Below are positions 43,291 to 46,790 of a stretch of DNA of 64,000 nt, in pieces. The DNA is taken from NCBI GenBank assembly GCA_017542125.1, contig JAFXXU010000068.1, positions 1 through 64,000 on the forward strand. The letters are read 5' to 3'. The notes under the pieces are model-generated. The model had not been told where the DNA came from and did no database searches. It saw only the letters and a program-made list of their open reading frames with translations. This DNA is from Ruminococcus sp. (lineage in GTDB: Bacteria; Bacillota; Clostridia; Oscillospirales; Ruminococcaceae). How positions within the stretch are numbered: the stretch's first letter is position 1; every line of letters begins with the position of its first letter. Both the position numbers and the translations under genes were made by a program.

Positions 43291-43716
43291 ATCTTGCGTG
43301 ACTGCACAGATCGCTGCAGGCAGCGATCGGGAGTTTCTGCGAAACTCCTGCAATCAAAGCAGGCGGCGGTCACAAAAGATATGCGATGAAGCGAAAGGTT
43401 GCCGGCGGTGCGCCGGGTAATTTTCGTGGAGTATGTCCGATTTTAAACCGGGCGACTGTAATACCAAACACAGTATGTGCTTATGCTTCTTGCGAAGGGC
43501 AGGCTTTGTCTGCTTTTGGCATGGGTGCATCGGCTGCGCTGTTTTTGAGATCTACGTCCTCCGAATACCGAAAGGTAGTTCGGATTTTTTAATGGGCAGA
43601 TCAGGGAACACACGGCAGGGTGTAAATCGAATATCCGACGTTTGCAGGGTCTTCGATCCAAACCACAAGGTATTGCATAGGAACAATGTTCCTGCCCCCA
43701 TATTTTGAAAAGCACT
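43291..43716 (+). promoter_or_regulatory. Long structured S10 operon leader
   Basis: Visible pairings: closing stem GTGACTGC (43298-43305) with GCGGTCAC (43366-43373), enclosing GATCGCTG/CAGCGATC (43309-43328) and GGAGTTTC/GAAACTCC (43330-43348), a three-way junction. Then come CCGGCG-GTG-CGCCGG (43402-43416), the terminator at 43560, and a domain closed by GGGCA...GGAAC (43594-43609) with GTTCCTGCCC (43688-43697). The Shine-Dalgarno lies just after, near 43718. Autogenous attenuation by a ribosomal protein is inferred. Confidence 0.75.
43560..43590 (+). terminator. Terminator-like hairpin inside the S10 leader
   Basis: TCCGAATACC (43560-43569), loop GAAA, GGTAGTTCGGA (43574-43584, one bulged G), then T6 (43585-43590). 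It lies about 140 nt before rpsJ, so it must be conditional. Confidence 0.82.
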
Positions 43717-44047: not shown

Positions 44048-44056
44048 GCTCCAAAA

Positions 44057-44114
44057 TGAGATCGCGTGCGATCTCACAGCGATGTATGCAGGTCATGTCG
44101 GGTAAGCCCCGACC
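44057..44114 (+). promoter_or_regulatory. Two hairpins between rpsJ and rplC
   Basis: TGAGATCG-CGTG-CGATCTCA (44057-44076) and GTCGGG-TAAGC-CCCGAC (44097-44113) fill most of the 90-nt gap. The 11-mer GTCGGGTAAGC is repeated exactly at the hairpin before rpsD (57572). Confidence 0.7.
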
Positions 44115-44137
44115 AATAACCGATAGGAGGAATAAAA

Positions 44138-44790: not shown

Positions 44791-45414
44791 ATGTCACAGA
44801 TCACCGTATTCGATATGGCAGGCAACAAGGTTGCCGACACTGAGCTCAACGACGCTGTTTTCGGCATCGCTCCCAATACAAATCTGATGCACGCAATGGT
44901 AGTTTGCTACCTGGCAAATCAGAGGCAGGGCACACAGTCCACACTGACCAGAACTGAGGTCAGCGGCGGCGGAAGAAAGCCCTGGAGACAGAAGGGCACA
45001 GGCCATGCAAGACAGGGCTCTATCAGAGCTCCGCAGTGGGTACACGGCGGCGTTGCACTCGGCCCCAAGCCCAGAGATTACAGCTACTCGCTCAATAAGA
45101 AGGAGAAGAGGCTTGCAATGAAGTCCGCTCTTTCTACCAAGGTGCTGGATAACAACCTCGTAGTAGTGGATGCTATCAAGACCGAGGAGTTCAAGACCAA
45201 GACGATCGTTGCGATGCTCGAGGCTCTCAAGGTAGAGGGCAAGGCTCTCATCGTTACCGCCGAGGCCGATAAGAAGGTCGTAAAGAGCGCAGGCAACATC
45301 CCCGGCGTCAAGACAGCCACCGTAAACACCCTGAACGTTTACGATATCCTCAACTACGATAAGTTCATCGTTGCAAAGGACGCTGTAGCTAAGATCGAGG
45401 AGGTATATGCATAA
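44791..45414 (+). CDS. rplD: Ribosomal protein L4 (uL4)
   Basis: 207 aa from ATG 44791 after GGAGGAG; an in-frame GTG-like upstream extension overlaps that site. The loop [20 protein letters not shown] lines the exit tunnel. In Escherichia coli L4 represses its own S10 operon, so it is a candidate effector for the long leader here. Stop and rplW start overlap (TAATG). Confidence 0.98.
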
Positions 45415-45707
45415 TGAGTAAGCTTGCACAGGATATCATTCTGAAGCCGGTCATTACTGAGGACTCCATGGAGAGACTCCCCAACGGCAAGTACACCTTT
45501 GAAGTAGCAACAGATGCCACCAAGGTCGATATCAAGAAGGCTGTCGAGCAGCTCTTCGATGTCAAGGTCGCTAAGGTAAATACCATCAGCGTAAAGGGCA
45601 AGCAGAAGAGAATGGGCAGATACGTCGGCTACAGACCCGACCGCAAGAAGGCTATCGTTACCCTCGAGGGCGATAAGACCATCGAGTTCTTCGACGGTAT
45701 GTACTAA
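45414..45707 (+). CDS. rplW: Ribosomal protein L23 (uL23)
   Basis: 97 aa. [21 protein letters not shown] and [19 protein letters not shown] are diagnostic. It sits at the tunnel exit and is the docking point for trigger factor and SRP. It is followed not by rplB directly but by a 249-bp spacer. Confidence 0.98.
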
Positions 45708-45710
45708 GAA

Positions 45711-45945
45711 GTAGGCAGGGTAAAAGCCCGGCCGAAGGTGCGGCGGAAAGCTGCACAGCTCCGAAAGCTCCGTAAAGACCGAGGAGCTGCGGAAAGCGCC
45801 TGCGAGGCAGTGAGGACTGCTGGGCGTAACGCCCCCATCCCGCAAGGGATAAGCCCTTGGATGCAAGGGTAATGACCGCAGGATGTATGTATGGAGCCGG
45901 TCTTGGGATAAGCCTTTGACCGCTTCGCAAAACTGAATACAAGGA
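45711..45945 (+). other. Hairpin-rich 249-bp spacer between rplW and rplB, candidate structured RNA
   Basis: No open frame of note. Consecutive hairpins: GTGCGGC/GCTGCAC (45738-45756), AGCTCC/GGAGCT (45757-45788), GCAGT/ACTGC (45807-45820), GGGCG/CGCCC (45822-45834), ATCCC-GCAA-GGGAT (45837-45850, tetraloop), CCCTTG/CAAGGG (45854-45869), and GACCG/CGGTC (45874-45902). AAGGAG then precedes the rplB ATG. Other gaps within this operon are mostly under 30 bp. I recognise no known RNA class. Confidence 0.7.
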
Positions 45946-45956
45946 GTGTATCAAAA

Positions 45957-46790
45957 ATGGCAATAAAGAGCTACAAGCCTACTACTGCCGGCAGAAGAGG
46001 TATGACAGTTACCGATTACTCCGGCCTTAGCAAGGTCGCTCCCTGCAAATCGCTGCTCGAGCCCATGGATAAGCACAGCGGCAGAAACAGCTACGGCAGG
46101 ATCACCGTCCGTCACAGAGGCGGCGGCGAGAGAAGAAAGTACCGCGTAATTGATTTCAAGAGGAACAAGCTCGATATGAACGCTAACGTTCTCACCATCG
46201 AGTACGATCCCAACAGATCCGCCTTCATCGCCCTCATCCAGTATGAGGACGGCGAGAAGAGATACATCATCGCTCCCAACGGCCTTAAGGTCGGCGATGT
46301 TGTAAGAGCAGGCGACGGCGCCGACATCAAGCCCGGCAACGCCCTCGCACTCGCAAACATCCCCGTTGGTACCTTTATCCACAACATCGAGCTCTACCCC
46401 GGCAAGGGCGCTCAGCTCGTAAGATCAGCAGGCAATATGGCTCAGCTGATGGGTAAAGAGGATAAGTACGCGCTCGTTAGACTCCCCTCGGGCGAGATGA
46501 GAAAGATCCCGATCAACTGCATGGCTACCATCGGTCAGGTCGGCAACATCGACCACGAGAACGTAAACATCGGTAAGGCAGGAAGAAAGCGCCATATGGG
46601 CTGGAGACCTACCGTAAGAGGTTCCGTAATGAACCCCTGCGATCACCCGCACGGCGGTGGTGAGGGCAAGTCGCCTGTCGGCAGACCGAGCCCTGTAACA
46701 CCTTGGGGCAAGCCTACTCTGGGCTACAAGACCCGCGCTAAGCATCATCGCTCCGATAAGTTTATCGTTAAGCGCAGAAACGGCAAGTAA
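45957..46790 (+). CDS. rplB: Ribosomal protein L2 (uL2)
   Basis: 277 aa. It opens [19 protein letters not shown]. The conserved C-terminal GVVMNP-like region appears as [20 protein letters not shown], containing the His next to the peptidyl-transferase centre. It is needed for subunit joining. It is preceded by the unexplained structured spacer. Confidence 0.98.

Follow-up and report, generated by a model that had tools for sequence, protein, structure and literature searches.

The window, a stretch of 64,000 nucleotides from a Ruminococcus genome, carries an S10 operon in which Pfam identifies S10, L3, L4, L23, L2, S19, L22 and S3. The rplW gene (L23) ends at 45707 and rplB (L2) starts at 45957. 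The 249 nt between them (45708–45956) hold no forward-strand open reading frame of at least 60 amino acids, in agreement with a sequence-only reading of this DNA that had described a non-coding spacer of about 250 nt. The short gaps which that reading saw elsewhere in the operon were also found: from rplC to rpsQ the other intergenic gaps measure about 0–22 nt. The rpsJ–rplC gap (44048–44137, 90 nt) is the exception, and the sole other long gap between rpsJ and rpsQ. The features on which the first part of the analysis bears are as follows.

43378–43458, forward strand: ribosomal leader of the S10-Clostridia family (RF03136), which heads the operon and scores 48.4 bits (cut-off 35.1).
45708–45956, forward strand: rplW–rplB spacer RNA, the whole putative leader, 249 nt (215–282 nt in relatives of the genus).
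45941–45948, forward strand: Shine-Dalgarno region of rplB, AAGGAGUG.
45957–46790, forward strand: rplB, encoding ribosomal protein L2 (PF03947 and PF00181), the presumed ligand and first target.

When the window was searched with Rfam at gathering level, no match fell within the spacer, consistent with the sequence-only reading, which had recognised no known class there. The sole hit of a permissive search (E up to 10) over 45600–46050 was SorY on the other strand, whose 18 bits fall far below its cut-off of 111. No promoter- or terminator-like sites were found in 45400–46100.

We then compared the spacer with those of relatives, as the sequence-only reading had proposed. Of 16 genomes of the genus searched, 14 yielded rplB, and every one of these has a long spacer of 215–282 nt. 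The first set of 121 rplB loci yielded 120 spacers, one locus (L119) having no rplW, and 91 of these were distinct, with lengths of 43–298 nt. For most near relatives this contradicts the earlier statement that rplW and rplB usually abut, which does hold for some members of the family (0–23 nt). In 89 of the 91 distinct spacers a common core could be parsed directly 5′ of rplB. It consists of a strand whose last four letters are GUAU, a stem and a strand GC(A/U)AA, with close variants of both sequences allowed, and lies a short way ahead of the Shine-Dalgarno sequence. The two spacers that lack it, L073 and L147, are both 43 nt long.

Among 40 further family genomes the core was recovered in 25 by script and in another 10 by eye, some of them degenerate. 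The cores found by eye were those of L300, L301, L303–L306, L308, L309, L314 and L323, several of which had CUAU or UUAU, and GAUAA, GACAA, GAAAA or GCCAA, at the two strands. Neither script nor eye recognised a core in the remaining five (L292, L311, L313, L324 and L326). It is likewise absent from four genomes of one genus of the family (L200, L201, L203 and L204), where the spacers measure 13–21 nt; these genomes offer a natural control for the leader’s effect. Since L073, L147, the four genomes of that genus and five of the 40 further genomes do without it, the core is dispensable.

NCBI places the named relative in the Oscillospiraceae, Eubacteriales. At the level of the order, rplB was found in 142 of 147 genomes and 84 loci were taken (L193–L276, some from the window’s own family), ten of which could not be parsed for rplB (L229, L232, L237, L240, L248, L249, L260 and L268–L270). 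Three other families carried the core, in 9 of 9 genomes examined (f24), 1 of 1 (f23) and 8 of 8 (f13). GGAU or AUAU replaced GUAU in two f24 genomes, and UUAU and GAUAA occurred in several f13 genomes. Apart from one genome of family f20 (L236, below), the core was absent from the fetched spacers of the order’s remaining families. Of 152 genomes with rplB sampled across the class, 28 loci (L165–L192) were taken, and only L165, from the same order, had the core. One record titled Alistipes sp. (L131) contains an rplB that is 85% identical to the window’s and has the core in its spacer; it is probably a mislabelled or mixed genome bin.

Genome-wide searches with a covariance model of the core (R1) indicated a preferred place. 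Among 61 family genomes, some of which had contributed to the training of R1, 22 yielded a total of 25 matches. Sixteen of these, including the nine best, lay directly 5′ of rplB, and the other nine were located elsewhere or in genomes where rplB was not found (G016, G031 and G076). This filtered search gave no match in 39 of the 61 genomes, including the window’s own, which carries the core. Across the phylum, 7 of 348 genomes matched (E 0.002–0.036; 348 × 0.05 = 17 would be expected by chance), and none of the seven 3-kb loci contained rplB. Because the core carriers G102 and the window’s own genome were missed too, the filtered phylum search is weak evidence of absence.

Taken as a single mRNA, which we assume, the locus thus has a conserved structured RNA directly 5′ of a ribosomal-protein gene, the arrangement by which r-leaders are recognised. 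The spacer RNA is very likely a ribosomal leader.

The sequence-only reading had also entertained a selfish structured RNA, and the length of the spacer is indeed unusual for a ribosomal operon. A DNA search of the own genome detected no second copy, the next best match being 23 nt, so a selfish element is not supported. Mobility is also hard to reconcile with conservation at the same place across genus and family, and we consider a mobile or selfish RNA highly improbable.

Folding of the spacer was compared with shuffles on both strands. On the forward strand its minimum free energy was better than that of 200 of 200 dinucleotide shuffles (z −4.8), and the complement folded less clearly (z −1.6; 12 of 200 shuffles were as good). 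More than seven stems were predicted, in keeping with the at least seven drawn earlier, and they include the hairpin with a GCAA loop. The array of hairpins is not conserved as a unit: only the 3′ core (45881–45936) and one junction (45799–45882) are conserved, and the other hairpins vary or are absent among relatives. The elements are listed in order.

45738–45756, forward strand: 5′ hairpin GUGCGGC/GCUGCAC, which varies among relatives.
45760–45793, forward strand: hairpin with ACCGA (45778–45782) on the loop side.
45799–45882, forward strand: junction closed by the helix CCUGCG/CGCAGG (45799–45804 with 45877–45882) around variable hairpins, a Ruminococcus-type extension.
45806–45821, forward strand: GAGG-loop hairpin within the junction, almost invariant, with 97.5% of cells paired in 24 sequences.
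45837–45850, forward strand: GCAA tetraloop hairpin, variable and not conserved, the one singled out by the sequence-only reading.
45881–45936, forward strand: core (model R1), a candidate mimic of the internal loop of 23S rRNA helix 66 in circularly permuted order.
45886–45892, forward strand: loop strand UAUGUAU (GACGUAU in rRNA).
45893–45926, forward strand: core stem P2 with the genus-type UUGG...CUUUGA extension; 92.9% of P2 cells are paired in other members.
45927–45931, forward strand: loop strand GCAAA (in rRNA, GCUAA in Ruminococcus and GCAAA in E. coli).

The leader therefore comprises two layers: a widespread core, and a domain closed by CCUGCG/CGCAGG that is added in Ruminococcus-type spacers. 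The core consists of a strand NANGUAU, a covarying stem and a strand GC(A/U)AA, and is situated directly 5′ of the rplB Shine-Dalgarno sequence. When the window was searched with R1 unfiltered, the core, which was not part of the training set, ranked first with 22.3 bits (E 0.0024), followed by a match of 14.3 bits.

The sequence-only reading had suggested covariation as a check on its stems, and we measured it against shuffles for both layers. Alignment A1 contained 24 sequences chosen by eye as Ruminococcus-type. In its domain and core stem 98.2% of cells were paired and covariation was 0.357, compared with 86.4% and 0.137 for shuffles, and on none of five measures did any of 500 shuffles come as high. 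Pairing dropped to at most 54% when the partners were shifted by one column. The junction helix was paired in 100% of cells, with changes on both sides in four of its six pairs. Alignment A2 comprised 55 of the 69 cores with a short P2, drawn from several families; the 14 left out were mostly near-duplicates, and cores with a long P2, such as the window’s, were excluded by script. Here 76.6% of cells were paired with a covariation of 0.565 (shuffles 58.2% and 0.217; 0 of 500 as high). Two other measures were weaker: at least as many pairs with two-sided changes occurred in 97 of 500 shuffles, and at least as many pair types in 1 of 500. Covariation is thus strong in both the core and the genus-type domain.

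Within the core the first three stem positions paired in 89 of 89 cases and the next four displayed GC, AU, CG and UA types, figures that are favoured by a parser that picks the best stem. The outer stem P1 was paired in 44% of A2 cells, complete in 13 of the 55 members and not formed in the window’s copy. Where formed, its outer three pairs covary (U-A, U-G and C-G). The unpaired loop positions rank among the most conserved of all.

Further sequence elements are conserved outside the helices discussed so far. In the 24 aligned members the CC of ACCGA is invariant and the whole motif near-invariant. Both ACCGA (45778–45782) and UUGG...CUUUGA (45902–45919) are conserved in the Ruminococcus-type leader. 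A pairing of ACCGA with UUGG was dropped, because L069 and L134 keep ACCGA without UUGG. A hairpin drawn around the window’s Shine-Dalgarno sequence (45937–45949) was likewise rejected, as it was not seen in the sequence of the aligned relatives.

The two strands of the core resemble a site in 23S rRNA. The E. coli 23S sequence at about nucleotides 1799–1820 reads ACUGU-GCAAA-CAC-GAAA-GUG-GACGUAU-ACGG, and that of a Ruminococcus sp. (L159) reads CUCU-GCUAA-AUC-GAAA-GAU-GACGUAU-AGGG. This GACGUAU/GCAAA stretch is what we take to be helix 66 (H66). Among the leaders, one group has GGU-GAUGUAU-stem-GCUAA-ACC (or -GCC) and another has GGC-AACGUAU-stem-GCAAA-GCC. Judged by sequence, the core looks like the 7+5-nt internal loop of H66 with its strands in circularly permuted order, since both loop strands are joined through the other stem than in 23S rRNA. 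The loop (GACGUAU with GC(U/A)AA) and the stem register look the same in both RNAs. They differ in that, where rRNA has the 3-bp stem capped by GAAA, the leader has other helices or a 3-bp stem that is open, and P2 carries a cap instead.

Each of the 13 leaders (of 55) with a complete outer stem matched 11 of the 12 loop positions of one rRNA version, and the mean over all 55 was 9.8 of 12. The window’s loop (UAUGUAU and GCAAA, strings that it shares with L069) agreed with the E. coli version at 10 of 12 positions, with P2 present and P1 absent. Scans of rRNA for the likeness covered 23S rRNA. We used a signature of NANGUAU plus GC(A/U/G)AA, in either strand order and flanked on each side by a stem of 3 bp or more, which occurred once in each of two 23S sequences of the family, at H66. 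Among 20,000 Markov sequences as long as 23S rRNA, 45 contained it by chance, in a test that was written after the likeness had been seen; when the stems were relaxed to 2 bp, 100 of 4,000 random sequences passed. A weight matrix of the leader strands ranked H66 as the best 23S site in L159 and the second in L160, in a scan that was not significant (154 of 300 random 23S sequences reached the H66 score). No convincing copy of the conserved GAGG-loop hairpin was found in 23S rRNA, and H66 mimicry does not account for the genus’s large 5′ extension.

In one of nine f20 genomes (L236) we noticed, by eye, GCAAA and ACGGUAU between two stems 5′ of rplB, in the native strand order of H66. An independent origin of this loop is possible.

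We also examined whether the loop that caps P2 could reach the ribosome binding site. In some relatives its sequence complements that of the linker or the Shine-Dalgarno region: CUCAUAAA with UUUAUGAG in L325, CUCAUAA with UUAUGAG in L322, UAUGA with UCAUA in L300 and UAAUG with CAUUA in L107. Up to 8 Watson–Crick pairs extend over the Shine-Dalgarno sequence in L314, L323 and L325. The four leaders L314, L322, L323 and L325, with 7–8 such pairs to the rplB Shine-Dalgarno region, contain a candidate pseudoknot switch. Over 114 sequences the longest Watson–Crick match averaged 3.96, compared with 3.42 across 300 shuffles, none of which went above 3.61 (kinship ignored), and a set of 68 sequences gave the same outcome (0 of 500 shuffles as high, kinship again ignored). 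Five pairs or more were present in 36 of the 114, some surely by chance. The predicted pairing is convincing only in some lineages, and not in the window, whose leader has no clear pseudoknot between P2 loop and Shine-Dalgarno sequence; a pairing of its CUUUG (45914–45918) with CAAGG at the Shine-Dalgarno sequence is only a suggestion. The pairing in some members points to repression.

These observations bear on a reading without a protein ligand, in which the hairpins would shield or cut the mRNA, or an enhancer would keep the start of rplB open. The spacer is rich in hairpins, promoter and terminator matches are missing, and many parts vary freely among relatives, all of which such an element would allow. 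It would leave unexplained why conservation ranks among the highest at unpaired loop positions, given that a plain hairpin barrier or an RNase III site has no need of them, and why the loop can pair with the Shine-Dalgarno sequence in some members, which suggests repression. We therefore regard a purely structural or processing element as unlikely.

The combined evidence argues for an autoregulatory leader of ribosomal protein L2 (uL2), to which we assign a probability of about 0.78; L2 as the ligand, repression and translational coupling are what we infer from the sequence comparisons. uL2 wraps around H66, which is described as ‘critical for uL2 binding’ (PMC12560758). The 3′ core would rebuild the asymmetric 7+5-nt loop of H66, with the capped stem P2 on the opposite side from the GAAA stem of rRNA. 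Once L2 exceeds free rRNA, it would bind this copy in the mRNA, just 5′ of the rplB Shine-Dalgarno sequence, and block initiation at rplB by covering the site. Since the core ends only a few nucleotides before the Shine-Dalgarno sequence, bound protein would obstruct the 30S subunit. In some relatives L2 may in addition stabilize the pairing of the P2 loop with the Shine-Dalgarno sequence or its 5′ flank. Translational coupling would lower the expression of rpsS, rplV, rpsC and the genes after them together with that of rplB. One option raised by the sequence-only reading, a ribosomal-protein leader acting on rplB, is thus the one that same-place conservation, covariation and the match to the L2 site in 23S rRNA support.

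The ligand could instead be another protein of the operon (L23, L4, S10, S19 or L22) or an assembly factor. According to the consulted part of PMC7247131, the ligands of operons in E. coli and B. subtilis are often not the product of the next gene, and the E. coli S10 operon is under uL4 control in the excerpted text of PMC10931766. Such a ligand would have to be squared with a conserved loop that matches the L2 helix H66, with an operon head that already has its own leader, and with the location at rplB of the nine best among the 25 genome-wide R1 matches. We think it improbable that a protein other than L2 is recognized; the ligand is probably L2.

A comparable candidate is listed in Table 1 of PMC7247131, where an Alphaproteobacterial L2 leader lies upstream of rplB, rpsS, rplV and rpsC with L2 as the likely ligand. 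In that table the ligand is called a ‘best guess’, made on the nearest gene, the motif is rated ‘?’ and no mark for rRNA likeness is given. The two candidates share the position at the gene and the likely ligand and come from different lineages. Within the window’s own organism, RF03136 is also a ribosomal leader of the same operon, with the difference that it sits at the operon head and does not match the rplW–rplB spacer. With an S10-Clostridia leader at the head, two leaders would control one operon. The S15 and L20 leaders, as presented in the consulted part of PMC7247131, work alike in copying part of an rRNA site on a different scaffold, and concern other proteins and other rRNA sites. 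The spacer leader would be an ordinary kind of regulator, comparable in action to known ribosomal-protein leaders built on copies of rRNA sites, in an unexpected and well-conserved design. A 2024 review (PMC10931766) describes uL2 as encoded in the uL4-regulated S10 operon and as having moonlighting roles, and the part of it available to us mentions no autoregulation. In the mostly open literature that was accessible, partly as excerpts, we found no L2/rplB leader or circularly permuted leader closer than the Alphaproteobacterial candidate.

A more far-reaching reading would have L2 control its own mRNA in Oscillospiraceae-type Clostridia through the permuted H66 copy acting as a switch, in which binding locks the hairpin and the loop forms a pseudoknot with the Shine-Dalgarno sequence, and would have the loop arise a second time in native order (L236), so that L2 feedback was built twice from opposite permutations. 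We hold this combination to be doubtful.

An autoregulatory L2 leader would allow direct tests of two points: whether L2 needs no more than a circularly permuted rRNA loop, set in a new scaffold, in order to bind, and whether control of the S10 operon is split into two separate blocks. If the proposal is true, this would be, as far as the open literature shows, the first L2 leader with support from rRNA mimicry, and a regulatory RNA that is common in bacteria of the gut and rumen but so far unlisted.
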